Below are positions 1,896-15,573 of a stretch of DNA of 34,758 nt, in pieces. Source of the DNA: a virus; the IMG/VR virus record IMGVR_UViG_3300033141_005122, positions 1 to 34,758 of that record. One strand, written 5' to 3'. Both the position numbers and the translations under genes were made by a program. Within the stretch, counting starts at the first letter, position 1. Each line of letters begins with the position of its first letter. The notes beneath the pieces were generated by a model. That model was not told the DNA's origin and did not search any database. It was given only the letters and a program-made list of their open reading frames with translations.

Positions 1896-2106
1896 TCTTC
1901 TGTTTTTGTCGATTAGGAGGTTTTTTAAATTTAGCTTCAGCAAATTCTAAACATCTATCTTTATATTTACATTTTAAACAAATTTCAATATTCAACAATG
2001 GTTTATTAATACGTTTATTACAACGCACATAAACACTTTTCTTTAAATCGCTTTCTATTTCATCTTGCTCTTTTAATACTTTTATATATTTTTTTAATGC
2101 ATCCAT
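1867..2106 (-). CDS. Small Cys-containing basic protein, unknown
   Basis: A 79-residue protein with four Cys: one alone near residue 28 and a cluster C-x2-C-x7-C, which suggests metal binding. The tail is strongly basic (KPPNRQKQKRRTRRRRVN), suitable for nucleic acid contact. No clear ribosome site precedes ATG 2106, but the upstream gene stops two bases away, so translation is probably coupled. The last codons lie within a CRISPR-like repeat, so the arginine run may be a by-product of that sequence. The C-terminus resembles that of the Cys-rich protein at 7852 (QQKQKRK). Function unknown. Confidence 0.7.
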   Translation of the reverse strand: MDALKKYIKVLKEQDEIESDLKKSVYVRCNKRINKPLLNIEICLKCKYKDRCLEFAEAKFKKPPNRQKQKRRTRRRRVN

Positions 2107-2107
2107 T

Positions 2108-2317
2108 TTAATATTGCTCTACCATGACAACTTTACATTTAGGGCATTTAAGATCTTCGCCAAAAACTACCCTCTTCACTTCTTCCTCATAACCACAATT
2201 AGGACATGTTAATTTTTTAATTGTTAATTTAGCATAATCTTTTTTATGTGCTGGTTTTAGTCTGTTATTTTCTTTATAAAATAAAGTATTAAATTCATCA
2301 ATTTTAAATTGTTTCAT
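2108..2317 (-). CDS. Small zinc-ribbon protein
   Basis: A 69-residue protein with two CxxC knuckles, CPNCGYE and CPKCK, spaced as in a zinc ribbon in its C-terminal half. The N-terminal half is lysine-rich. ATG 2317 follows GGAGGAG and overlaps the end of the gene upstream (2304). Zinc ribbons of this size in phages are often accessory nucleic-acid or protein-binding modules; no specific role is visible. Confidence 0.8.
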   Translation of the reverse strand: MKQFKIDEFNTLFYKENNRLKPAHKKDYAKLTIKKLTCPNCGYEEEVKRVVFGEDLKCPKCKVVMVEQY

Positions 2318-2510
2318 TGTTTTCTAACTCCTCCGCTGATAACATTTCAGCTTCCCAATTATTAGGATCTGTATAAAATTGTTTATGTTCTTCACATACA
2401 TACCAAAATCCTACACGATATCTAGCTGGTCTATTACATTTATAATACTTTCCATTTTCGTCCATTATTTTACCGTCCTTAGGCATCGGTACACTACATA
2501 ATTTAGTCAT
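2304..2510 (-). CDS. Small putative zinc-binding protein
   Basis: A 68-residue protein whose Cys/His pattern (C5, C25, then CEEH near residue 39) suggests one zinc site. It is the first gene after the promoter at 2548-2576 and has a strong AAAGGAGG site before ATG 2510. It leads the transcript that continues through two small genes to thyX and the tRNA. Not recognised as a named family. Confidence 0.78.
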   Translation of the reverse strand: MTKLCSVPMPKDGKIMDENGKYYKCNRPARYRVGFWYVCEEHKQFYTDPNNWEAEMLSAEELENNETI

Positions 2511-2547
2511 TGAAGCTCCTCCTTTTTAATGTGTGGTTTCTACTATA

Positions 2548-2576
2548 ATTATAGCATATAGCGATAAAAATGTAAA
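2548..2576 (-). promoter_or_regulatory. Vegetative sigma-type promoter (TTTACA-N17-TATAAT, extended -10)
   Basis: On the minus strand TTTACA (2576-2571), 17 bases, then TATAAT (2553-2548) preceded by TGC. It starts about 30 nt before the gene at 2510. Identical hexamers and spacing occur at 7807, 14348, 29082 and 29790. Confidence 0.85.
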
Positions 2577-2579
2577 CCA

Positions 2580-3611
2580 CTAAAAAGGAATACTAACACC
2601 TAATCCAATGACTTTATCACTTTCGGTAGATAAACCTATGAACGGTCCTATGAAAGTATTCGAAATAATGGGCAGTGGCTCTCCAATATTATATAAAACA
2701 GGAGTAAATTTAGCATAAATATCTTTTCCATTAGTACTAATACCAAAATCTATAAAACGCCAAGTAAGATCATTTTTCGTTCTTCCATATCCAGAAGTAC
2801 TAAAACTAATACCTCCATAAACCGGTATATTAATATCACTGTCAGAATCTATGTTATTTGAACTGACATCTAAATTTAAATTAATATGAGGAGACCAAAT
2901 ATAAAAATCTTTTATTTTCCTTCTAACTTGTTTAAACTCAGCTGATTTTATTTCAATCGGTAACTGTATGCCTCTACTAGCTTTATCTTTATTATTCTCA
3001 GCCCATGTTTCTATGTAAGTATTCCAATTCCCATTCTGTTGTTCCGCCTGCACTATTTTAGTTTTATATTCAATTGGATAAACTCCGGTTTTCCATTTTT
3101 TATCAGCAGGTCTATTAGGATAAAATATAGCCCAAGCTATAGGTATCTGTTTAAGTTGGCCATCCTTTGTCTTCGCCTTAACATAAATTTTTTTAAAGTA
3201 TTGTTCGTTTTGATCTCCTGTACCTTCTTTGTAAACATGATCTGATAGCTTATTAAGTTCTAAAGACAAATTCTCATTTGTTTGAGCAATTACTCCTCCT
3301 ATATTAGTAATTTTTTCATCATTTTTTTTAAGTAAAGATATTAATTCAGAATTTTGTTTTTTAAGTTTAGTAAGCTCGCTTTTCCAACTATTAGAATTTG
3401 CATTAACAACATTTGTTTCTGCTCTAACTTGATTCAGTTTAATTTCAAAATATTTTCTTTGTTCTATTAATTCTAATTTTAATTTCTCTTCTTGCATCTC
3501 TAATTTAGTTTTTATCCAACTATAGGCTGAAATACCCCCTAAAACAATACTTCCAATTATTACAATTATTAATATTAATTTAATAGTTTCTAATACAGTT
3601 GTAAATTTCAT
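2580..3611 (-). CDS. Membrane-anchored coiled-coil protein with beta-rich C-terminal domain
   Basis: A 343-residue protein. Residues 8-30 form one hydrophobic segment (LILIIVIIGSIVLGG), followed by a charged helical region to about 130 that reads as coiled coil. The remainder is beta-rich with alternating hydrophobic residues, ending in GLGVSIPF. A C-terminal Phe after alternating strands is typical of outer-membrane barrels, but an N-terminal anchor plus coiled coil does not fit a simple porin. It may be a membrane-tethered structural or lysis-related protein; I do not recognise it. GGAG precedes ATG 3611, and the CRISPR-like array ends 30 nt upstream of that start. Confidence 0.8.
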   Translation of the reverse strand: MKFTTVLETIKLILIIVIIGSIVLGGISAYSWIKTKLEMQEEKLKLELIEQRKYFEIKLNQVRAETNVVNANSNSWKSELTKLKKQNSELISLLKKNDEKITNIGGVIAQTNENLSLELNKLSDHVYKEGTGDQNEQYFKKIYVKAKTKDGQLKQIPIAWAIFYPNRPADKKWKTGVYPIEYKTKIVQAEQQNGNWNTYIETWAENNKDKASRGIQLPIEIKSAEFKQVRRKIKDFYIWSPHINLNLDVSSNNIDSDSDINIPVYGGISFSTSGYGRTKNDLTWRFIDFGISTNGKDIYAKFTPVLYNIGEPLPIISNTFIGPFIGLSTESDKVIGLGVSIPF

Positions 3612-3641
3612 ATTATTTTCTCCACGGTTGGTGTTTTGTTT

Positions 3642-3864
3642 GTTTCAATTCATGCGCCCACGCGGGCCGCGACATCTCGCTCCGTACTGGACATTCCTAT
3701 GCCGTTTCAATTCACGCGCCCGCGCGGGGCGCGACAGTCAATAATTGGTATAAGCCGTTTGTATTGTTTCAATTCACGCGCCCGCACGGGGCGCGACATA
3801 TCTTTACATGCAAATACCTTGACGTTTTTCTATTTCAATTCACGCGCCCCGCGTGGTGCACGAC
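3642..3864 (-). CRISPR. Mini CRISPR-like array, four type I-C-like repeats, no cas genes
   Basis: Four repeats of about 32 bases begin on the plus strand with GTTTCAATTCA(C/T)GCG: 3642-3673, 3704-3735, 3766-3797 and 3832-3864. Spacers are 30, 30 and 34 bases and unlike one another. Read on the minus strand each repeat is GTCG, a GC stem, then GTGAATTGAAAC, the layout of type I-C repeats. The last copy starts with A and has an extra base, yet its stem can still pair. A degraded fifth copy may follow at 3889-3913, inside the end of the next gene. The repeats are far more GC-rich than the surroundings. No cas gene is in the window, so processing would depend on host Cas proteins. Confidence 0.85.
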
Positions 3865-3869
3865 TCCTA

Positions 3870-4091
3870 TTATTTTAACTTATGGTTGGTTTCACGTCCG
3901 CGCAGAATGCAACTATAACCATGTAACATTCCTCCTACAAATATGGCTACAGTACCCCAACTTAAGAGTAAAAATAAAATAGTTGTCGGTACTGTAAATT
4001 TCTCATCGTCTAATACCATTGAATTACAGTAATCTATTGTATAAAAAGCAAATAACATTCCGATAAAATATAATAATATATATATAGACAT
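3870..4091 (-). CDS. Small two-helix membrane protein, unknown
   Basis: About 73 residues with two hydrophobic segments (IYILLYFIGMLFAFY and TTILFLLLSWGTVAIFVGG). ATG 4091 is preferred because AGGGGGA lies at a proper distance; an upstream ATG at 4109 has no such site. The last codons overlap a degraded repeat-like sequence at the edge of the CRISPR-like array. Could be holin-like in topology, but nothing nearby supports that. Function unknown. Confidence 0.65.
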   Translation of the reverse strand: MSIYILLYFIGMLFAFYTIDYCNSMVLDDEKFTVPTTILFLLLSWGTVAIFVGGMLHGYSCILRGRETNHKLK

Positions 4092-4109
4092 ATAAATCCC
4101 CCTAAACAA

Positions 4110-4571
4110 CTAAATAATAAAATCATAAAATCCAGGGTCAGTAGACAAAATATATCCAGAGGCCACTGATATAGCATCCATATTTAATTCTCTAAAATAA
4201 TTATATTGGGGAAGTTCTTTATATTTTCTTAACCTTTCTTTCACAATTTCTCGATCCCACCCTTGCATAGTTATAAGATCTTTGAATAACCGTGGATAAG
4301 TATGCCTCAGATAATGAAAATAACCTCCTTTAACTAGTTCAAAAATAATAATTTTTCTAGCTTTTTCAATATCATAATCTGGATGTATCCATGCAACGTT
4401 CCACCCATTTAAAATACTTCGTTTAAAAGATTGTCCGTTTAAGTATACTACTTTTAAACCAAAACGTTTAATAGTAAAAATAGCACTATCATCTATATTA
4501 ATTCGTTCATATTCTACTTGATATGGATTTAGTAAGGTAGATACTATTTGTTCAACTTCATCAGAAGTCAT
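4110..4571 (-). CDS. Hypothetical protein
   Basis: About 153 residues, mixed alpha/beta, with no motif I recognise. The start is ATG 4571, placed by TGGAGG upstream and overlapping the stop of the cupin gene as ATGA; a further ATG at 4586 lacks a site. It ends one base before the next possible gene. Position between a cupin and the small membrane protein gives no clear clue. Confidence 0.75.
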   Translation of the reverse strand: MTSDEVEQIVSTLLNPYQVEYERINIDDSAIFTIKRFGLKVVYLNGQSFKRSILNGWNVAWIHPDYDIEKARKIIIFELVKGGYFHYLRHTYPRLFKDLITMQGWDREIVKERLRKYKELPQYNYFRELNMDAISVASGYILSTDPGFYDFII

Positions 4572-4951
4572 TGCTCTAACCTCCAAATATCAATGTCCTC
4601 TGGAATAGTCACTCCAGAATCTAACCCTTGGTTAGACACTTCTATTATTTTAACAGGTTTATCAGTTCCACCATACCTATGCATAATGCCGGGCTCTATA
4701 TAAATAGACCATCCTTTTGGACATTCATAATAATTTAAATCTTGTGGATCACAACACTTACCCATTGCTATGCTTAACATACCATCAACTACAATTATCG
4801 ATTTTTCCTTTTCTTCGTGTACAATTAAATCAGTAATTTTATACGCATCCACTTCAATAGTTTTACAAACATATGTATCAGTTAATGCCCAAACTATTTC
4901 TGAACCCCAAGGCTTTTCAGTATAGATAGGCTGCGCTAATTTGTTAGTCAT
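4568..4951 (-). CDS. Cupin protein, phosphomannose isomerase type II-like
   Basis: About 127 residues forming one small cupin barrel. PWGSEIVW near the N-terminus and GWSIYIEPGIMHRYGG resemble the C-terminal cupin of mannose-1-phosphate guanylyltransferase/mannose-6-phosphate isomerase proteins. It lacks the nucleotidyltransferase domain, so it may bind or isomerise a sugar phosphate, or simply use the fold. ATG 4951 follows GGAGG and overlaps the end of the clp gene. Family moderately sure; substrate unknown. Confidence 0.78.
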   Translation of the reverse strand: MTNKLAQPIYTEKPWGSEIVWALTDTYVCKTIEVDAYKITDLIVHEEKEKSIIVVDGMLSIAMGKCCDPQDLNYYECPKGWSIYIEPGIMHRYGGTDKPVKIIEVSNQGLDSGVTIPEDIDIWRLEQ

Positions 4952-5621
4952 CCGAAGCCTCCATATAAAATGGTGGATCATCATGGTCTTTAGTTAATGA
5001 CCGTAAAGATATTTTAACATCATTATCTTCTATATATACTTTAGCTTCAACATTAGACCACTTCCTATCCCCCTCTTTTAGTAATCTTTTTGCTAGAGGC
5101 GTAGATATATAACGTTCTATAGCCCTTAATAAAGGACGTGCTCCGTACTCTTCATCTATTCCCTTATCATAAATATATGAGTACACAGATTTATCAAAAA
5201 CAAGGTTAAGTTTTGAATATTTAGTTTTATTGAGTTTAAGGTTATTTCTAAGTTTAATCAACTCTAACTTAATAATTTTAATATAATCTTTTTTAGTTAG
5301 TTTATTAAAATTAATTGTACAAGTAAGCCTATTTAAAAATTCAGGTTTAAAATGTTTCCTAAGTGCTTGGGAAATAGCTGAATCAGCTTTATGTTTTGTT
5401 ACCTCAGTTACATTTCCAAATCCTATTTTCTTTTTGATTGCATTTACTTCCTTAACACCTAAATTAGACGTCATTATAACAATTACATCTCTAAAAGAAA
5501 CAGTTTTAGATTTTCCATCAGTTAATCTACCTTCGTCCATGATTTGTAACATCAATTGATGAACTCTATCACTAGCTTTTTCAACTTCATCAAATAATAC
5601 TATTGAAAATGGCCGCCCTGC
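4944..5621 (-). CDS. Clp AAA+ ATPase, C-terminal part after a frame break
   Basis: Open frame continuing the clp gene. It starts near GRPFSIVLFDEVEKA, which contains Walker B, and runs through EGRLTDG, sensor 1 (MTSNLG), the arginine-finger region PEFLNR and the sensor 2 box YGARPLLRAIERY to the end at 4944. It has no good start codon of its own before a TTG/ATG pair near 5555, which would omit Walker B. Together with 5600-6805 it would make a ClpA/B/C-type unfoldase. The frame is lost between 5612 and 5620. Stop and next start overlap with the cupin gene. Confidence 0.85.
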   Translation of the reverse strand, partial: AGRPFSIVLFDEVEKASDRVHQLMLQIMDEGRLTDGKSKTVSFRDVIVIMTSNLGVKEVNAIKKKIGFGNVTEVTKHKADSAISQALRKHFKPEFLNRLTCTINFNKLTKKDYIKIIKLELIKLRNNLKLNKTKYSKLNLVFDKSVYSYIYDKGIDEEYGARPLLRAIERYISTPLAKRLLKEGDRKWSNVEAKVYIEDNDVKISLRSLTKDHDDPPFYMEASDD

Positions 5622-6805
5622 TCATGGCCAACATAACCAGCTGGACTTCCAATTAGTTTTGCGTATTCATGGTCAGCGGCATACTCGGAACAATCGATTA
5701 CTACTATAGCATTTTTATTATTCAAAAGTTCTTCCGCTAATACTTTGGCAGTATAACTTTTACCAACTCCTGTCTGCCCAGTAAATAAAAAGGCTCCAAT
5801 AGGTTTTTCAGGATCTTTTAATCCAACACTAGCTCTTTGAATAGCGTCAACTAAATCATCGATAGCTTCGCTTTGACCGATTACCTTTTTTTTCATTAAA
5901 GACGGTAATTTTAACATATGATCAGTACTAACATCTCTAAATGTTTTATGCTTTTTGTTTCCATGTAACACCCTGTCTACCAACTCTTCTGGATTAGAAT
6001 ATGCTTCCTCCATACTAGAAAAAGGATCCATTGCTTCGTCATCTGCCGGTGAAAAAGAGTCTTTGTACAGATCATAATCTAAAAAGGGATTAACTTTTTT
6101 ACATAAATCATATAACTCATGAATAATAATGGGGGAAGGCACTCTTTGTGGAAGCCCCAACTTATCTAAAGTTACAAATAAATCTTCAACTTCATGAATA
6201 CAAACAGTAACAATATACTGTTCAAATACATGTCTACTTGTAAAATTTCTATTACCTAAAATAGTAATTTCACTACCAGGGTCAAATTGTTTTATAATAA
6301 TATATTGCCCTAATCTTTTCCAAAATCTCTGTACCTTTATATGCGGTAAATCATAAATATTAATAAGTTTGTTAAGAGCTTCTTTATTATTAGTTTTAGT
6401 ACTCTTCTTGTATACATTACGATCCCAATACTCATTATCTGGTAAAAGTGTACAAGACTCAATATCCATGTCATTTCGAATTTTTACCACGTTGTTTTGG
6501 TTAATAACTAAATTATCGGGATCAAAAACTGGGTTAGTTTTTAATATATGTTTTATTAATTCACTTCGAACTTGAAAAAGTTTTTCAGATGAAACACGTT
6601 TAGTTTTAATAAACTCTAATAAATCACGTATATTCATTATACATGTAGCCACTAAAAAGTCTTCGTATAAACTTTTAGCGATTAAACCCTTCTCCCTAGT
6701 AAAATAGGTAAGTTTATCATTGACTTCATCTTCTGGTATTATAAAAATTTTGATTTCGAAATCTAAAGCCTTTAACTTCTTAGTAACAATTTTATATTTC
6801 TCCAT
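5600..6805 (-). CDS. Clp AAA+ ATPase, N-terminal part, truncated by a frame break
   Basis: 401 residues. Residues 1-280 are a domain I do not recognise. From about 300 a Clp D2-type AAA module begins: GQSEAIDDLVDAIQRA, Walker A GQTGVGKS (343-350), then LIGSPAGYVGHEQGG and a premature TAG. Clp relatives continue from GG with about eight more residues before (R/N)PFS. Here those residues are missing and the frame is off by one, which fits a deletion of about 28 bases (22 to 31 possible). Such phage Clp proteins have a single AAA ring and a private N-domain, suggesting a role in unfolding or remodelling phage complexes. Inactive as written. AGGAG precedes ATG 6805; Rad52-like gene is 15 nt upstream. 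Confidence 0.88.
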   Translation of the reverse strand: MEKYKIVTKKLKALDFEIKIFIIPEDEVNDKLTYFTREKGLIAKSLYEDFLVATCIMNIRDLLEFIKTKRVSSEKLFQVRSELIKHILKTNPVFDPDNLVINQNNVVKIRNDMDIESCTLLPDNEYWDRNVYKKSTKTNNKEALNKLINIYDLPHIKVQRFWKRLGQYIIIKQFDPGSEITILGNRNFTSRHVFEQYIVTVCIHEVEDLFVTLDKLGLPQRVPSPIIIHELYDLCKKVNPFLDYDLYKDSFSPADDEAMDPFSSMEEAYSNPEELVDRVLHGNKKHKTFRDVSTDHMLKLPSLMKKKVIGQSEAIDDLVDAIQRASVGLKDPEKPIGAFLFTGQTGVGKSYTAKVLAEELLNNKNAIVVIDCSEYAADHEYAKLIGSPAGYVGHEQGGHFQ

Positions 6806-6819
6806 AAATACAGCTCCTA

Positions 6820-7770
6820 TTACTTAAGTTTATTTCCATATTGCAATACTTTAACTGCGTCCTTATAAGATAGTTGATCAAGTTCTGGAAATTTATCTGT
6901 TCCTAATGCCTTAAGCATAAGATCTTTATATGTTAAACCGTATTGATCCATTAATATAGTAATGGCCGTCTTTTGTACTGGAGTTAGAGGAGTTTGCTCA
7001 GTAGAATTAGGTACAAAATCTTTAACTACATTTTCTGGAATATCCGGCAGTTTATCAGCAGTACCTTTAACATCTTCGCTATTGATAGGAAAATCAGGTA
7101 TACCCGATTCATCTATAATTGGTGGATTTTGTTTCTTAGTATCATTATCTGGTTGTCTTGGTGCATCAAAATTAACAGGTGGATCAACTGGAGGCACAGC
7201 TACTTGATCTGCTTTATTAGACTCTACTACAGGAGCTGTAATATCAATAGGTGGAACAGTAGTATTTAACTCCGGCTGATTTACAGGTGGTATACTAATA
7301 GTATTATCTGGTACATCTAACATTGGCGATTCAAACATTTCCTGATTGTCACCTGGTATATCAATATCTTGTGATGATGTATCAGGATCTAATTTAAGAC
7401 CAACACCAAATCTTGAACATGCTACCTTAATAGCTTTAGATATCGCAGCTTTATAAGAATTCCCTAAGTCTATCGGCTGGTCTTTTTTAAATCCAGAAGT
7501 ATACCGTGCAATTAACTGACTCGCCACTCCATCATGGTATAACACAGAGACTTCGTTCCCAGGGTATACAGCTACTCTAACATGAGCTATTATGTAATCT
7601 TCTTCTTTAAATAACTTAATTATTTCGGTACTCCAATTACCTTTAAAAACAGAATTCATACGTTCTACCACATCATCTGCAGAAACATAGTAGAATGTGC
7701 GCCCTCCTTGACCTTGTCTAGCCTTTAACTTAAACGGTGCCTGTAAACTAGCTAAAACTTCATTGTCCAT
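6820..7770 (-). CDS. Rad52-family single-strand annealing protein
   Basis: 316 residues. The N-terminal 140 or so match Rad52/Sak-type annealing proteins: YVSADDVVERMNSVFKGNWS and SYKAAISKAIKVACSRFGVG. A long Pro/Asp-rich linker (about 150-260) follows, then a compact C-terminal helical piece (TPVQKTAITILMDQYGLTYK) that may bind a partner such as SSB. It would pair complementary single strands during phage recombination. It is the first gene after the promoter at 7807-7835, with AAAGGAG before ATG 7770, and heads the transcript that includes clp. Confidence 0.85.
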   Translation of the reverse strand: MDNEVLASLQAPFKLKARQGQGGRTFYYVSADDVVERMNSVFKGNWSTEIIKLFKEEDYIIAHVRVAVYPGNEVSVLYHDGVASQLIARYTSGFKKDQPIDLGNSYKAAISKAIKVACSRFGVGLKLDPDTSSQDIDIPGDNQEMFESPMLDVPDNTISIPPVNQPELNTTVPPIDITAPVVESNKADQVAVPPVDPPVNFDAPRQPDNDTKKQNPPIIDESGIPDFPINSEDVKGTADKLPDIPENVVKDFVPNSTEQTPLTPVQKTAITILMDQYGLTYKDLMLKALGTDKFPELDQLSYKDAVKVLQYGNKLK

Positions 7771-7851: not shown

Positions 7852-8124
7852 CTATATAAGTTTACGTTTTTGTTTCTGTTGGCCCACACGTCTTTTCTCC
7901 GATAAAGATGTCTGTTTCTGTATATGAGTTGCAGATGGACAATCTCCTAAACGCCACTTAATTTCTGGTATTACATACAGCTTACAATAATCATTTTCAA
8001 TCCTTTTACAACCTATACATTTATCAATTATTTTTTTACATTGTATTCCAAGTATACATTTATTATTTTTACGTGCACTACATACAGATTTTGGAATATT
8101 ACAAGTAATTAATAATTTACCCAT
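7852..8124 (-). CDS. Small Cys-rich putative metal-binding protein
   Basis: 90 residues. Cys residues at CNIPKSVC, KCILGIQC, CIGC, YC and a terminal WRLGDCPSATH motif suggest one or two metal sites (zinc or iron-sulfur). The C-terminus is basic (GQQKQKRK). ATG 8124 is chosen because it follows GGGAG and the end of the transporter gene; a longer frame upstream overlaps that gene. It resembles other phage Cys-rich small proteins with P-x3-W-x2-G-x-C, but I cannot assign a function. Confidence 0.75.
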   Translation of the reverse strand: MGKLLITCNIPKSVCSARKNNKCILGIQCKKIIDKCIGCKRIENDYCKLYVIPEIKWRLGDCPSATHIQKQTSLSEKRRVGQQKQKRKLI

Positions 8125-8484: not shown

Positions 8485-8736
8485 TGGTGGAGGTGTCGGG
8501 CTCTGCCTCCCGAGTCCGCGCTAACACAATTATAACTGATATACGATGATTAATTATTTACTTGTTTGTTTCAATTCACACGCTCGCGCTGGGGCGCGGT
8601 ATTGGACAGAGTTTATCATTCTATGAATGTAGTTAATAATGAATTTTCCATTTATTTTAGACCGGGCTTTTAACGTAGACGCCCACTACGCATCGCAGCT
8701 ACAATTTAGTTACCACGTCGAACCTATCTCACCCCC
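8485..8736 (-). ncRNA. ssrA: tmRNA-like RNA (reduced SsrA) with embedded CRISPR-like repeat
   Basis: A 252-nt RNA with several tmRNA hallmarks. The 5' end GGGGGTGAGATAGG followed by TTCGAC is the tmRNA start. GGGGGTG pairs with CACCTCC just before an encoded CCA at 8485. A long P2 helix forms (TAAC..AATT..CGATG with CATCG..AATT..GTTA). Pseudoknot PK1 is clear: CGTAG/CTACG with loop GGGC pairing to downstream GCCC. The tag start resembles that of B. subtilis (ATAAATGGAAAA against ATAACTGGCAAAA). Oddities: the T stem is intact (TCGGG/CCCGA) but its loop lacks TTCGA; no PK2-PK4 is obvious; a CRISPR-like repeat occupies 8568-8600; the tag frame is unclear. It lies 10 nt after SpoVR, so it probably matures from that transcript. 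Confidence 0.75.
8568..8600 (-). repeat. Solo CRISPR-like repeat S2 inside the tmRNA-like RNA
   Basis: Starts GTTTCAATTCACACGC on the plus strand and ends GGGGCGCGGT, close to the array repeats with one extra base. Same orientation as the array. It sits where a complete tmRNA would carry its later pseudoknots. Confidence 0.8.
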
Positions 8737-8746
8737 ACGTCATTAC

Positions 8747-10258
8747 TTATTCTTCTTCAGTAGTTGATTTTTCCGCATCATTATCTGATACTATTACAAC
8801 TAACTCATCATCGTCGTATGTGTACAAGACTACTTTATTTCCCCATAAATACTCGACATGTTTCAAAGTTTTTTCTGCATACGTTTTATCTAATGGTATA
8901 TTATCATACTTATGTTGTAATTTTAATTGGCCTCTATTATTAAAATTACCTTCCACTATTAAAATTGTCGGTATTTTATTTACTGCTAAAAAATGAACTA
9001 ACTTTTTCTTAATTTTTTCTGCGTCACGATGACTAATTACATAATCAATAGACTGTGGTTTCTCCTTAACTTCAAACAAATAAAGATTTAAGTCTTGAAT
9101 AAGGTCTAAAGTTAAAAATTCCTGAATAAAAAACCAATCAATATAAGTAGCCATCACGCTTTTACATTTCTCCCAGCCTTTTAATTCTTGTGTGTCCCAA
9201 TTAAGCTTAGTTTTTGCATCCATACAATTTTTCCAGTCTCTGCCATATTTACCTTTATTCCACCTATCTTCTATATCTTCCCAAATTTTAGAGCCTATTA
9301 AATAAGGATTAATATTAAATGGAGATTCGCCCTTAACTAATGAATTAGCATAATTAAATTCAGCATGCTCTGCATTAGTTAATAACCCTTCTTTATATAA
9401 CTGATTAATAACTTTTTCATGTATTAAAACAGCAAACCCCTCATTCATAATTTTAGTCTTAATAATAGGCCAATAATATTGACCTTCCATTCGTAATACT
9501 TCAAGAATATCTTTTTGCCAATCCTCTAATACTCGTGAATTATCAATTAAATACCGTAAAATATCTTCCGTTGGTTCAACTGGTGTTTTTAATTTTAACT
9601 TTCTCCACAATTTTTGGTTATATAATTCGACATCTTCATTTATTTTATCAACATCAAAATTTGTGAAATCGGCAAAATCTCCACCATGGATATAAAGTTG
9701 CTTCTTTTTCTGTTCGAAAATTCTTTTTCTTTTTTCATCTTCAGTCTCTCTAGGTTCAAATGGACTTGAATGACGTTGTAAAGCGTGCCCAGCGTCTATA
9801 GTTTTTTCAACCTCCTCTACTCCATATCTGCGTTCATATTCATTGAAACGCTTAGACGCTTCATACATAATACCTATAATATCTTGTCTAGAATTTTGAA
9901 AATATTTATTATTAGTAAAAAACGCAACATGGCCATAAACATGGGCTATTACAAGTGCCTGTACTGCAAATCTGTTCTCTTTCATCAGGTAAGCTTTGGC
10001 TGGGTTACTATTAATTACAACCTCGTATGGTAAAGTTCGCTTACTATGCTCATAAATAGTCTTTTCTCGCTCATATTCTCTCCCATATTTCCAATTACTT
10101 ATATTTGTTGGAATATTATAAGCCATAATTTCCAACATCTTTTGAGCAGGAATTACATCGAATTCAATTGGATAACAATTAAGCTTTAATTCTTCAGTCA
10201 CTATTTGATTTATACGATTCTCTATTTTTATTAGTCTTCGTAGCTCATTCTGCTCCAT
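8747..10258 (-). CDS. SpoVR family protein
   Basis: 503 residues, the normal length for SpoVR/YcgB. Recognisable segments include AHVYGHVAFFTNN and MNEGFAVLIHEK, which keep the conserved His and Glu residues that suggest a metal site, and the helical N-terminal domain. SpoVR is linked to spore cortex formation in Bacillus and to stress survival in E. coli; its biochemical activity is not settled. Here it is the last protein gene of a prkA-DUF444-spoVR unit, the same trio found in bacteria. AGGAG precedes ATG 10258. The tmRNA-like RNA follows. Confidence 0.92.
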   Translation of the reverse strand: MEQNELRRLIKIENRINQIVTEELKLNCYPIEFDVIPAQKMLEIMAYNIPTNISNWKYGREYEREKTIYEHSKRTLPYEVVINSNPAKAYLMKENRFAVQALVIAHVYGHVAFFTNNKYFQNSRQDIIGIMYEASKRFNEYERRYGVEEVEKTIDAGHALQRHSSPFEPRETEDEKRKRIFEQKKKQLYIHGGDFADFTNFDVDKINEDVELYNQKLWRKLKLKTPVEPTEDILRYLIDNSRVLEDWQKDILEVLRMEGQYYWPIIKTKIMNEGFAVLIHEKVINQLYKEGLLTNAEHAEFNYANSLVKGESPFNINPYLIGSKIWEDIEDRWNKGKYGRDWKNCMDAKTKLNWDTQELKGWEKCKSVMATYIDWFFIQEFLTLDLIQDLNLYLFEVKEKPQSIDYVISHRDAEKIKKKLVHFLAVNKIPTILIVEGNFNNRGQLKLQHKYDNIPLDKTYAEKTLKHVEYLWGNKVVLYTYDDDELVVIVSDNDAEKSTTEEE

Positions 10259-10267
10259 TTATTACTC

Positions 10268-11596
10268 CTAACCTGCTTGTTTAAATAAAATATGTTTTAA
10301 AGTTGGATATACGTGATTTTTATTTCTAATAGTAGATAAGATCATATGTAATTGATCGTTTCTACAAAATTCAGCACCGTCTTCAGATTTACAATTAGTG
10401 TTTTGTGACCCCCACAATAAACCAGTTGTTTGATTAATGGACGAATACTGAGGCTTTACCTCTGTATATGCAAACATATTTATTTTCTTTTTCATTAATT
10501 CATCTACATAACGTACAGTTTTTTGTGGATCAAAATCATCTCCGTCACTTACATATATGCAATAAACATTCCACTCTTCAACAGGATATTCAGTTTCAAT
10601 TAAATATATAGACTTATCGATTGCTGTCCAACAAAACGTGCCTCCAGACTCGCCACGTCTAAAAAATGTATCTTCATCTACAATCTTTGCTTCGGTTGTA
10701 TGTACTATAAATTTTATATCGACATAATCATAAACTTTTTTTAGAAATTCAACTAACCAAAACAAAAGAGAACGACATAAATATTTTTTATCTATTGTCA
10801 TCGACCCGCTGGTGTCCATCATAGCTATAACAACAGCATTTGAATGTAACTCATATTCTCGTTCAATTTGTTTATACCTAAGATCTTCATCTTCAATTAT
10901 AACATATGGGTCTATGTTTTTATCGACACCATCACTTTTAATAAGTTTAATCGCGCTATTAATATCACCCTTGGCTTGTACTAAGGCCTTTAAAGCTATT
11001 TCATAATTACAATTTAATTCTTCGACTATTTCACGAGCATATAATTCATTTCGCTTAATAGACTCTAAAATAGTACGTTTTTTATGTAAACGTGGTAAAA
11101 TACCTACTTTTGAAATAGTTTTAAATTGCCACCCGCTAGGGACAAGTTGTTGAGCTTTTGTTTTTTCCTCAATCCAGGGCAAACCTAAGTCTTCAAACAT
11201 AATTTCTATTAAGTAATCAATATCAATTTCAGCTTCAATATAATCTTCTCCAGGTTGATCACCAGGTTTACCTTCCCCACCTTTACCAGAACCTGGTTTA
11301 GGAGCCCTACCTATCACATCTCCGGGCTTACCTTTACCTTGACCCACACCATCTCCATCACCATCTTCACCATTATTTTTACCTTTACCTGTTTGGCCAT
11401 GAATAAATTTATAATCTTTCAAACCACGCACAGGAATTCTAACTTTTTTACCTTTTTTCTTTGTAATTATAGATTCTTCGGCTACAACGTCCTTTACACT
11501 TTTCCGTATAGCGTCATCTATTTTTTTATGGTGACGTTCGACATCTTTTTTACCTTTTTCAGACATATCCCAGTCTGGATGATAAATGATAGCCAT
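10268..11596 (-). CDS. DUF444 (YhbH/YeaH) vWA-type protein with UBA-like insert
   Basis: 442 residues. The N-terminus (YHPDWDMSEKGKKDVERH) is YhbH-like. A Gly/Lys-rich low-complexity stretch covers about 65-118. The C-terminal half is a von Willebrand A fold with MIDAS DTSGS at 261-265, T-rich GGTFCWTA near 318-325 and SDGDD near 350. Between them (about 186-222) is NCNYEIALKALVQAKGDIN, which reads as a UBA/TS-N three-helix module that I would not expect in DUF444. The partner PrkA kinase/AAA protein and SpoVR flank it. GGAGG precedes ATG 11596. The set is probably expressed from the promoter at 14348. Confidence 0.9.
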   Translation of the reverse strand: MAIIYHPDWDMSEKGKKDVERHHKKIDDAIRKSVKDVVAEESIITKKKGKKVRIPVRGLKDYKFIHGQTGKGKNNGEDGDGDGVGQGKGKPGDVIGRAPKPGSGKGGEGKPGDQPGEDYIEAEIDIDYLIEIMFEDLGLPWIEEKTKAQQLVPSGWQFKTISKVGILPRLHKKRTILESIKRNELYAREIVEELNCNYEIALKALVQAKGDINSAIKLIKSDGVDKNIDPYVIIEDEDLRYKQIEREYELHSNAVVIAMMDTSGSMTIDKKYLCRSLLFWLVEFLKKVYDYVDIKFIVHTTEAKIVDEDTFFRRGESGGTFCWTAIDKSIYLIETEYPVEEWNVYCIYVSDGDDFDPQKTVRYVDELMKKKINMFAYTEVKPQYSSINQTTGLLWGSQNTNCKSEDGAEFCRNDQLHMILSTIRNKNHVYPTLKHILFKQAG

Positions 11597-11676
11597 ACAA
11601 CCTCCATCATATAACTTCTATATTTACAATATTTAAGTTCAAATCCACAATTACTTTCCAACTACGTTTACAACTA

Positions 11677-11832
11677 TCATACAAACGTCATTTTATACGT
11701 ATTACTATTCAAAAACACACCATCTATATTATATAAATAAATAGAAGCACAATAAGGACAACGTTTATCAGTAATATTAAAACTTTTTAACACATCTTTT
11801 TTTACTTTAGGCCTTATTAAATCTTCAAACAT
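11677..11832 (-). CDS. Very small protein MFEDL type, single CxxC
   Basis: 51 residues, MFEDLIRPKV at the start and one CPYC knuckle. Its first residues and the CPYC spacing match the next small gene upstream (MFEDILG, CPYCG), suggesting a duplicated pair in which this copy lost the second knuckle. Only a weak GGTGG precedes ATG 11832. A single CxxC cannot hold zinc alone unless it dimerises. Function unknown. Confidence 0.55.
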   Translation of the reverse strand: MFEDLIRPKVKKDVLKSFNITDKRCPYCASIYLYNIDGVFLNSNTYKMTFV

Positions 11833-11859
11833 AAGTAACCACCGTTATACTAAAAAATA

Positions 11860-12030
11860 TTAATCGCATTCCCACACAAACCCGCAGTTAGCACAAAAAA
11901 ACTCAACATTTTGAGCCCCTACACTAGTTAACCCAACTTCACTTGCTCCGCAATATGGGCAAGTAACAGATGTAGTATCTAATTCACCACTACTATTCTC
12001 ACAATTTCTCCCTAAAATATCTTCAAACAT
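11860..12030 (-). CDS. Small zinc-ribbon protein, MFEDI type
   Basis: About 56 residues with CPYCG and CANCG knuckles, a zinc ribbon, ending VWECD. ATG 12030 (MFEDILGRN) is chosen by similarity to the neighbour at 11832; a longer form from 12057 is possible but its start lies next to no better site. GGAGG is 11 nt upstream. It sits between prkA and DUF444, so it may be an accessory to that trio. Confidence 0.75.
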   Translation of the reverse strand: MFEDILGRNCENSSGELDTTSVTCPYCGASEVGLTSVGAQNVEFFCANCGFVWECD

Positions 12031-12066
12031 AACATACTTCACCTCCATTGTTAACAATAACTACAT

Positions 12067-14013
12067 TTATTCTTCTTTTCTAAGAATTTCTCCTACAAAA
12101 GCTAATAAAACATTAGCACACTCTTCACAATACCCTTTCTCTAATAATGTCTGTAAAGCTTTTTCTCTCCGTTTTTTAGCTTTAGGGTTTGTAACTGATT
12201 TATCTGCTAACGATAGACTTACCATCGGTTTAAGATCAGACATTAGTTTTTTCTCTATAGCCTCCTGTAAAGGTGGGTAATCTTTATATTTAAATGATTT
12301 ACCCTGTTCAAGTGCATGGGATTTATAGACAAATATACCATTTCTAAACTCCGCCTTAGAGTTTTCTGGTACAGGTATAAGTTCTTCTAAAGATCTCATT
12401 AGTTTCTCATCTGGATCAGAGTATTCTCCTGTAACAGAATCGTAGACTTTTTCCTTTAGGCAGTAGGCTGTAATATTTTTCATATAGTTTTCAAACAATG
12501 CATTTGCTTGATCATCATACGCATATAGAAAAGCCATATTAACTTCTTTTTTAGCTATTTCTTTATATTCAGAACTTACCGAATCTTTATCACCTACTAA
12601 TAAATTAAGATAATGATCGACATCTTCTTCACTTATTCCAATATGGTGGGTAAAATTATCCCTTAGCGCTCTAATGATATCGATAGCGTTAACACACTTC
12701 TTATCTTCCTTAGCTCCTAATGCAACATTCAGTGCGTTTATAATAAATCGCGGTGATATACCGTTTAACCCTTCCCCTTTATTTTTTCCTTCTTGCCTTA
12801 ATTCTTTAATATCTATATCGGTTTTTTTAAATCCTTCAGATATTTCGCCATTATATAACTTCATTTTTTCTATTTTATTGGATACCTTAGTTGATTCTAC
12901 TAATCTAGTTAAAATAGCAAACTGAGCCGCAACTTTTAAAGTGTGTGGAGCTATATGTATATCTCTAAAATCAGACTCATTAATCATTTTCTCATAAATT
13001 TTTATTTCATCGTCTACTCGTAAATTCCATGGAACAAATACTGGATACATCCTATCATGTAGAGCTTCATTCTTTTTATCAGCTTTAAAAATATCAAATT
13101 CCGTCATATTAGTATGCGCAATCACTAATGTATCAATATACATTTGTGGAAATCCGGGGGATTTAATCACTTGTTCTTGTGCCAATGATATTAATACATA
13201 TTGCAATTTAATATCCGTTTTTAACAATTCAACCATCTCAATTAATCCACCGTTAGCTACTTGAATTTCGCCGTCAAACGAAAAAGCTCGTGGGTCTGTT
13301 TCACCATACCTTGCCACTTTAGCCATATTAACACGTCCTATCAATTCTGTAACATCTTGGCTTCGTGGATCTGATGGTTGAAATGTACCAATACCTATAC
13401 GTTTTTGTTCAGAAAATTTAATTTTTTCAACTGGTAATTTATCCCAATTCACAACTCCGTTTTCTGTAAATTCTGTGTCTAATTTATGTTGACATGCAGG
13501 ACATAAAACCCCTTCTATTTTTACATTTAATTGTTCTTCCCAAAAATCACGATTGTTTAATGGAATCGCATGTAGCGGTTCCTCATGAATTGGACATCCT
13601 TTTATAACGTACTTAGAAATCGGATCTTCTTCCAAACCTCTCTTTAATAATGCGGCTATAGTAGATTTACCACTACTAACAGGGCCAACTAAAATAAGAA
13701 TACGTTTACCAGTCTCAGTACGCCTAGCAGCTGCTTTTAAAAACCTCATGATATCATGTATTGGTTCTAATATACCGAAAATTTTATTATCAAAAAAGTT
13801 ATATTTTACTAAATCTTCATAACCTCGTAGTTTAAAAGAATCATCAACATCACTGGTACCATGCTCCGCTATCATATTATAAATTCTGCCAGGAGCGAAC
13901 GTAGCAATCTTTGGATCTTCCTTTACCAATTTGAGATAATCTACAATATTACCTTCCCACTTTTCAAACTTAGATTCCTCTTTTTGATTAGCAATAATTT
14001 TATCAAAGTTCAT
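12067..14013 (-). CDS. prkA: PrkA family AAA+/serine protein kinase
   Basis: 648 residues, full length for PrkA/YeaG. The AAA domain begins near residue 75 with Walker A GPVSSGKST; the zinc-like pair CPACQHK and CPIHEEP, the long helical middle and the C-terminal PrkA domain (LEELIPVPENSKAEF, EKGYCEEC) follow. PrkA acts in sporulation in Bacillus and in stress or nitrogen starvation in E. coli; activity as kinase or protease differs among reports. Complete with DUF444 and SpoVR in order. ATG 14013 follows GGGGGA and overlaps the small gene upstream. A phage copy may steer host dormancy or stress, which is my inference. Confidence 0.93.
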   Translation of the reverse strand: MNFDKIIANQKEESKFEKWEGNIVDYLKLVKEDPKIATFAPGRIYNMIAEHGTSDVDDSFKLRGYEDLVKYNFFDNKIFGILEPIHDIMRFLKAAARRTETGKRILILVGPVSSGKSTIAALLKRGLEEDPISKYVIKGCPIHEEPLHAIPLNNRDFWEEQLNVKIEGVLCPACQHKLDTEFTENGVVNWDKLPVEKIKFSEQKRIGIGTFQPSDPRSQDVTELIGRVNMAKVARYGETDPRAFSFDGEIQVANGGLIEMVELLKTDIKLQYVLISLAQEQVIKSPGFPQMYIDTLVIAHTNMTEFDIFKADKKNEALHDRMYPVFVPWNLRVDDEIKIYEKMINESDFRDIHIAPHTLKVAAQFAILTRLVESTKVSNKIEKMKLYNGEISEGFKKTDIDIKELRQEGKNKGEGLNGISPRFIINALNVALGAKEDKKCVNAIDIIRALRDNFTHHIGISEEDVDHYLNLLVGDKDSVSSEYKEIAKKEVNMAFLYAYDDQANALFENYMKNITAYCLKEKVYDSVTGEYSDPDEKLMRSLEELIPVPENSKAEFRNGIFVYKSHALEQGKSFKYKDYPPLQEAIEKKLMSDLKPMVSLSLADKSVTNPKAKKRREKALQTLLEKGYCEECANVLLAFVGEILRKEE

Positions 14014-14323
14014 TTTTATCCCCCGACATATATAAATTTACTATTGTGTCTTTTAATTCTTCAGTACGTACAGCAATTTCACTAGCTAATATTAAATTAT
14101 GTTCTGCTAACAAAGAAGCTTTACTTTTTTTATGTTTATTAAGCCACTCCTTTGCCTTTTTCATAGTATATTTTTTCTTATCGAATAAATAGGTAACAAT
14201 AATTTTGCGTTTTATATCATATAACGCTTTGATACCATTATCTATAGTTATTGTTCTAAGTTCATTAGTCTTTATCTTACGTTTAACAGGAATCCTATGA
14301 TACTTTTGTGTAGTTTCAGGCAT
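14003..14323 (-). CDS. Small protein with AKxWLxxH-type motif
   Basis: 106 residues. The middle, DKKKYTMKKAKEWLNKHKK, resembles the short F-D-x-x-Y-T-x-x-x-A-x-x-W-x-x-x-H motif often seen in phage proteins near capsid-maturation genes. ATG 14323 follows GAAAGGAGG and lies about 20 nt from the predicted transcript start, so it leads the prkA operon. The rest is basic and helical. Function unknown. Confidence 0.75.
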   Translation of the reverse strand: MPETTQKYHRIPVKRKIKTNELRTITIDNGIKALYDIKRKIIVTYLFDKKKYTMKKAKEWLNKHKKSKASLLAEHNLILASEIAVRTEELKDTIVNLYMSGDKNEL

Positions 14324-14347: not shown

Positions 14348-14376
14348 ATTATAACATATAACAACAAAAATGTAAA
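14348..14376 (-). promoter_or_regulatory. Promoter for the prkA-DUF444-spoVR operon
   Basis: TTTACA (14376-14371), 17 bases, TATAAT (14353-14348) preceded by TGT. It lies directly after the terminator of the upstream block and about 25 nt from the first start codon. Confidence 0.85.
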
Positions 14377-15147: not shown

Positions 15148-15573
15148 CTAGTCCTCGTTGGTATTTATAGCTAATATATTCTGTTGTAATAAAGTTTTCG
15201 CTTCGCCCCAACTATCTATCAATAATTCTTCCACTTCACGATTATCTGTTACATCAATCAAAGTTATTATGTATATGTCACTAGCATTAATAAATTTCTC
15301 GGTTACATATAACTTAATATACTTCTTGCTACCATCTGGGCGATTTATAATTACTTCTTTAGCATCATCATAACTATAAATCATAGTACATATATTACAA
15401 ATTTGTTCATCGCATTTAGACTGCAACAACTCTTCTCTACTTCTACCAAGCAAATTTTCGGCTTGTGAATTAACTCCTAAAATATTATGATCATCTGCAT
15501 TTACCAATAAAACTCCCACACGTATAGACTCTAATATTATGGCCATAAGCTCATTATTAAATGACGTTACCAT
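15148..15573 (-). CDS. PAS-domain protein
   Basis: 141 residues, nearly all one PAS fold: VGVLLVNADDHNILGVNSQA, the GRSREELL helix, and the closing strand YIITLIDVTDNREVEE. A CDEQICNIC cluster follows the helix, as in PAS domains whose Cys residues sense redox state or bind metal. No kinase or other output domain is attached, so it probably works through protein contact. PAS proteins are unusual on phages. GAGGTG precedes ATG 15573. Confidence 0.85.
   Translation of the reverse strand: MVTSFNNELMAIILESIRVGVLLVNADDHNILGVNSQAENLLGRSREELLQSKCDEQICNICTMIYSYDDAKEVIINRPDGSKKYIKLYVTEKFINASDIYIITLIDVTDNREVEELLIDSWGEAKTLLQQNILAINTNED

Follow-up and report, generated by a model that had tools for sequence, protein, structure and literature searches.

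The window analysed here is the whole 34,758-nt virus record IMGVR_UViG_3300033141_005122 (34.8 kb, 31% GC), and all coordinates refer to positions within it unless a relative is named. Nearly all of its long open reading frames (ORFs) lie on the minus strand, and three of them encode PrkA, the DUF444 protein and SpoVR (Table 1), referred to below as the trio. The three products cover their Pfam models almost from end to end: PrkA matches AAA_PrkA over model positions 3-357 of 358 and the PrkA C-terminal domain over 1-255 of 255, DUF444 matches over 7-417 of 418, and SpoVR over 3-403 of 407 together with SpoVR_C. All scores lie far above the curated cut-offs, and no internal stop is found in PrkA, DUF444 or SpoVR of the window. 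The gene order, PrkA-DUF444-SpoVR, matches the bacterial order in the Thermomicrobium and Clostridia copies compared. With full-length domains, intact frames and this order, the trio is a complete, intact, phage-borne set, as an earlier sequence-only reading of this DNA had claimed. The genes may form one transcription unit: a single strong promoter match lies upstream of them, and a search between positions 8000 and 16000 gave no terminator-like site. The small protein encoded by the first gene of the predicted operon has a 62% identical homolog at the equivalent position in a related 68 kb viral contig, L002.

Table 1. Features of the trio region in the window, with the basis of each assignment.
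Feature	Positions	Strand	Basis
Sigma-70-type promoter, TTTACA-N17-TATAAT, TG-extended	14348..14376	-	sequence match upstream of the trio operon
Small protein, 105 aa, MPETTQKYHRIPVKRK..., first gene of the predicted operon	14003..14322	-	without Pfam match
PrkA, 648 aa, AAA+ ATPase with PrkA C-terminal domain	12067..14013	-	Pfam
Zinc ribbon 1 (CPYC...CANC), about 56 aa, intact	11860..12030	-	weak Pfam zinc-ribbon matches; L002 homolog
Zinc ribbon 2, broken, only the first CxxC in frame	11676..11831	-	three-frame translation; intact L002 counterpart
DUF444 (YhbH/YeaH-like) vWA protein with metal ion-dependent adhesion site (MIDAS) motif, 442 aa	10268..11596	-	Pfam
SpoVR (YcgB-like) with SpoVR_C domain, 503 aa	8747..10258	-	Pfam
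Transfer-messenger RNA (tmRNA) gene directly downstream of SpoVR	8485..8736	-	Rfam RF00023, 69 bits

The residues that characterise the three families are preserved. Phage and bacterial PrkA share the Walker A motif GPVxxxKS, the sensor-1-like HTN and the DR arginine, and the MIDAS positions of DUF444 (D261-x-S263-x-S265, T320 and D351) do not vary among the 50 phage and clostridial sequences compared. Among 50 SpoVR sequences, H106, H110, E151, E273 and H280 are invariant and H158 is nearly so; this set of histidines and glutamates resembles a metal or active site. When the window is compared with L002, the ratio of nonsynonymous to synonymous substitution (dN/dS) is 0.042 in PrkA and 0.086 in SpoVR, whereas two neighbouring genes have values of 0.29-0.31 (Rad52 0.31); these values show the trio to be under purifying selection. 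As a separate observation, the L002 DUF444 gene (10441-13077) carries an intein-like insert just before the MIDAS SGGT (T) motif. Oversized frames consistent with inteins are also present in PrkA of L022, L025 and L031, in SpoVR of L024 and L031, and in the portal and large terminase genes of L026, where Pfam identifies an intein/LAGLIDADG or HNH domain.

A search of viral contigs with the window PrkA matched 60 contigs. The L002 protein is 90% identical, and about 28 other viral contigs lie at 65-72% (clade I), while the best bacterial matches in the genome scan reach 37-40% and copies on plasmids or second replicons up to 43.5%. The phylogeny of all three proteins against phage and bacterial copies, which the sequence-only reading had called for, yields congruent PrkA, SpoVR and DUF444 trees, each of which recovers the clade I phages as one group with starred support. 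The trees were built quickly, with SH-aLRT support, and contain some long branches; the positions of the Thermus and huge phages in them are unsure. In the PrkA tree, the bacterial sequences closest to clade I come from Bacillota and Thermomicrobium. Recent capture from a host, for which the earlier reading had named identical host copies as the sign, is ruled out by the low identity to bacteria (at most about 43%, against 65-90% among phages), by the sharing of clade I across viral contigs and by the low dN/dS. Nor does a bacterial stretch explain this part of the contig: the record is viral, and the relatives, which might themselves have been bacterial contigs miscalled as viral, carry the trio flanked by T4-type major capsid protein (MCP), portal, protease, scaffold and terminase genes. 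Collectively, the sequence comparisons support the window trio as a phage-owned, vertically inherited copy of the bacterial PrkA-YhbH-SpoVR system.

Outside clade I, three further groups of phages carry these genes and stand apart from it in the trees. Clade II phages (L030 among them) have the order DUF444-SpoVR-PrkA, clade III phages group with Pseudomonadota-type copies, and the Thermus phages form a group of their own; therefore, at least four entries of the whole trio into phages are implied. Near the clade II trio of L038 lies an isocitrate lyase gene (1946-3181), and in the huge phage L146 (LR745206, 635 kb genome) a full-length Hsp70 gene (3441-5342) is found a few kb from the trio. 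Among bacterial copies, prkA is split at about position 243-276 of the AAA profile in G086:C15, G050:C10, G146:C3 and G128, with 5-60 kb between the halves where these share a contig, or with the halves on two contigs, as if skin-like elements interrupt the gene.

In clade I the trio is embedded in a T4-type head operon with the arrangement portal-21-22-MCP-TerS-[PrkA-DUF444-SpoVR]-TerL, where TerS and TerL are the small and large terminase subunits. The contig L012, annotated with Pfam and PHROGs, illustrates it: portal gp20, protease gp21, scaffold gp22, major capsid gp23, a 148-aa ORF and PrkA are followed by small ORFs, DUF444, SpoVR, the large terminase and an Ad2 head-tail adaptor. The family profile of the 148-aa ORF matches the gp16-type structures 3txq and 3txs (E 2.5e-4), and 9 of its 12 members match the PHROG terminase small subunit; by these matches, the ORF preceding PrkA is TerS. 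The order TerS-PrkA-DUF444-SpoVR-TerL recurs in clade I, including L018 and L020, in which the capsid genes are inverted, and the distance from the TerS stop to the PrkA start is only -47 to +89 nt. To avoid circularity, a second search was based on TerL and thus blind to the trio. The relatives' contigs are fragments; family loci were counted only with at least 1.7 kb upstream. SpoVR lies upstream of TerL in all 22 informative family loci (17 after removing copies at 95% identity), whereas none of 19 more distant T4-like outgroup loci contains any trio gene; the nearest of them, L205 (TerL 47% identical), reads portal-21-22-MCP-TerS-TerL. The probable history is thus an insertion of the trio between TerS and TerL at the root of the lineage, followed by retention. 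Mean pairwise identity within the family is 0.69 for PrkA, 0.68 for MCP and 0.63 for TerL. The best explanation of these comparisons is that the trio is a long-kept core component of one T4-like phage lineage rather than a stray host gene.

The window itself belongs to a sublineage with a different setting. It is collinear over most genes with L002, and its neighbouring genes encode ribonucleotide reductase, a thymidylate synthase-like protein, Hsp20, Rad52, a radical SAM protein and tail-fibre proteins. Genes for DNA polymerase, a UvsX-like protein, a helicase and a clamp are also present in L002, in which the searches made detected no head genes. In both, the trio sits beside replication and nucleotide genes and retains a sigma-70-type promoter. 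The PrkA tree (98) and the DUF444 tree (97, with L027) nest the window and L002 within the phages with TerS-trio-TerL order, whereas the SpoVR tree places them as sister of that group (87, unstarred), so that a relocation of the trio from the head operon to the replication region in this lineage is likely rather than proven.

The phage-type promoter that had been assigned to the operon is real as a sequence match and is kept in L002 at the equivalent site upstream of the trio, as TTTACA-N17-CATAAT. The exact motif TTTACA-N17-TATAAT occurs five times in the window, each time on the coding strand (2548, 7807, 14348, 29082 and 29790, minus strand), and these sites likely represent a phage early-promoter class. 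The T4-late motif TATAAATA is not above chance in the window, where the only site ahead of the trio, at 15162-15169, is separated from it by some genes. In the relatives, TATAAATA occurs within 150 nt upstream of TerS in 13 of 21 loci (1.2 expected), of TerL in 10 of 23 (1.2) and of the scaffold gene in 7 of 13 (0.85), but it is scarce at the trio genes (PrkA 1/21, DUF444 0/21, SpoVR 0/20). Given also the short TerS-PrkA gap, the trio thus appears to ride on the TerS promoter in these phages.

By its motifs, however, that promoter is not purely late. The TTTACA-N17-TATAAT motif is found at TerS in 14 of 21 loci (0.35 expected), ten of which also have the late motif, and near PrkA in 8 of 21 (0.17 expected). 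The portal, scaffold, MCP, TerL and Ad2 genes of the family loci lack it; the other head genes have the late motif only, or neither promoter type. A fused, compact dual promoter, TTTACA-N17-TATAATATAAATA, is common at clade I TerS, for example in L012 at 7473-7508. An assignment of the trio as a purely late gene, first favoured on the TATAAATA counts, was dropped once the sigma-70-type motif was found at the TerS promoter. Since the relocated trio keeps the sigma-70-type site, the conserved regulatory feature is, as far as motifs can tell, the early-type promoter; the late one comes in addition in those phages whose trio lies within the head operon.

The trio can be compared with several known systems. 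The bacterial prkA-yhbH-spoVR operon (yeaG-yeaH plus ycgB in E. coli; also Rhizobium etli) has the same three full-length Pfam families, order and motifs, from which the window trio differs by its own phage lineage (PrkA at most about 43% identical), its phage promoters and the TerS-TerL placement in relatives. Thermus phages phiYS40, TMA, phiLo, MN1 and Lalka also carry PrkA, DUF444 and, where recognisable, SpoVR together, annotated as serine kinase, SpoVR, and conserved bacterial protein or vWA; there, however, the order is DUF444-SpoVR-PrkA, PrkA is 32-35% identical, SpoVR is very divergent and the trees indicate a separate acquisition. The MoxR AAA+/vWA pairs (RavA-ViaA, CbbQ-CbbO, and those of jumbo phages and Acidianus two-tailed virus) likewise join an AAA+ gene to a MIDAS vWA gene, but the ATPase of the trio is of the PrkA family, Pfam finding AAA_PrkA and no MoxR model, and a third, enzyme-like gene, SpoVR, accompanies it. 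The Ralstonia jumbo phage RsoM2USA has SpoVR and PrkA close together (ORF28/ORF30), although the genes were reported singly, TerL is far away and no module was described (PMC8504454). In the open-access papers searched, no description was found of the phage trio as a module, of its TerS-TerL placement or of the dual promoter.

With roughly even confidence, we regard the trio as a phage-owned core AAA+/vWA remodelling system that likely tunes the infected cell toward a growth-arrested state. PrkA would form an ATP-driven AAA+ ring that remodels proteins, with the vWA/MIDAS protein DUF444 as its adaptor, and SpoVR would be an enzyme activated by, or working with, PrkA-DUF444, as a natural third partner or client. 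An AAA+ ring with a MIDAS vWA partner resembles the MoxR-vWA systems, which remodel and activate target complexes, and PrkA of B. anthracis is reported to oligomerise with ATP and to have no detectable kinase or protease activity (PMC13001217). Driven by the early promoter, and in most relatives by the late TerS promoter as well, the trio could be present throughout infection and push the cell into the growth-arrested, stress-tolerant state served by the bacterial operon, the benefit being that a large phage might complete a long infection in a host that is starving or resting. A role in the host cell is favoured because the prkA operon of R. etli is strongly (p)ppGpp-induced at growth arrest (PMC3188799). 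Some observations weigh against this interpretation. The TerS-TerL embedding fits a role in packaging or assembly equally well, and sequence searches gave no solved-structure relative of SpoVR or DUF444. PrkA of B. subtilis was reportedly a kinase and weak protease, which would imply another mechanism. Moreover, mutation of prkA in R. etli gave no clear stress phenotype, and the benefit of the module to bacteria is thus unclear (PMC3188799).

A tentative and less probable alternative is that the trio acts as a virion-assembly or DNA-packaging chaperone, PrkA-DUF444 remodelling terminase, portal or prohead and SpoVR serving as a processing enzyme. The fixed TerS-TerL position across the family, the very short TerS-PrkA spacing and the late promoter shared with TerS would all be accounted for, and the Thermus phage Lalka27b, a separate acquisition, has the order portal-minor head-vWA-[448-aa ORF in the SpoVR place]-AAA-TerL. 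For jumbo phages, a role in virion assembly has likewise been proposed for a MoxR-vWA pair, with reference to Acidianus two-tailed virus (Iyer et al. 2021, PMC7824862). The host-cell role is nevertheless preferred because in the window lineage the trio, under strong selection, occupies the replication/nucleotide region with an early-type promoter, and because in other phages (clades II and III, Thermus phages MN1 and phiLo) the trio lies at a distance from the head genes; on this ground a general link to packaging genes across all phages is not supported either. Furthermore, the early promoter is absent from head genes other than TerS, and bacteria use the trio without virions. Somewhat more doubtful is a mixed arrangement, in which the bacterial starvation system would have been recruited as a packaging machine working with TerS or the prohead, the early promoter being present since the trio also prepares the cell.

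The sequence-only reading had suggested that the phage steers host dormancy or spore entry. The broader part of this proposal, that the trio acts on host physiology, agrees with the early-type promoter and the growth-arrest link of the bacterial operon, but sporulation steering as proposed is not supported: PrkA and SpoVR occur in a Ralstonia jumbo phage (PMC8504454), and the bacterial operon is found in the non-sporulating R. etli under (p)ppGpp control (PMC3188799). That a phage of a spore-former uses the trio to advance, block or ride spore formation is possible but improbable, even though prkA and spoVR mutants affect Bacillus spores (PMC13001217; references in PMC4605624), the nearest bacterial kin of clade I PrkA include Bacillota, and some phages do carry sporulation genes of other kinds (PMC10294663, PMC9429907). 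The scan of window genes turned up no further sporulation gene. The trio is also present in phages of Thermus, a non-spore-former, and spore steering is not needed because phages of non-sporulating hosts carry the trio too. Hardly any weight falls on the trio being a passenger, that is, bacterial genes carried by chance without a phage role, or a misassembly. All three families are common in bacteria, and Enterobacter phage LAU1 (MN688132 1-3308) shows how host flank can pose as phage: its YeaG/YeaH genes are probably host flank because they lie at the record end and on a tree branch of 0.024 beside a bacterial copy. For the clade I lineage, however, this explanation is already refuted by a clade common to about 30 viral contigs from many metagenomes, by low dN/dS, by T4-type capsid neighbours and by inteins as elsewhere in these phages.

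PrkA, YhbH/YeaH and SpoVR/YcgB are very widespread in bacteria, and yet their biochemical job is unsettled between kinase, protease or neither. Large phages have apparently taken the whole set as a unit at least four times, and one family keeps PrkA as conserved as its capsid; the three therefore probably act together, with a product valuable during infection. Phages bearing the trio would offer a tractable, fast genetic system for finding its function. Caution is also warranted when phage spoVR is classed among 'sporulation' auxiliary genes, as was done for an ocean oxygen-minimum zone, where it was the most abundant sporulation-type viral gene (PMC8940887).

The added zinc proteins between PrkA and DUF444, singled out earlier as unusual, are retained only in part: one ribbon is intact and the second is broken, and they are lineage-specific extras outside the conserved module. 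L002 has two intact zinc-ribbon genes after PrkA, while in most other relatives this place is taken by unrelated small ORFs or homing endonucleases; owing to their absence from most relatives, the ribbons were rejected as members of the module. The tmRNA gene, overlooked in the window by the sequence-only reading, is syntenic after SpoVR in L002 (15853-16219, 105 bits). ARAGORN reported no tmRNA in the window, and the tag reading frame of the window tmRNA looks unusual. Farther downstream, a ClpA/B-type AAA protein (PHROG 'ATP-dependent protease') is encoded in two pieces at 4944-6805 on the minus strand; an identity as Lon was discarded, the pieces being halves of this protein. In L002, a longer open frame spans the matching region.

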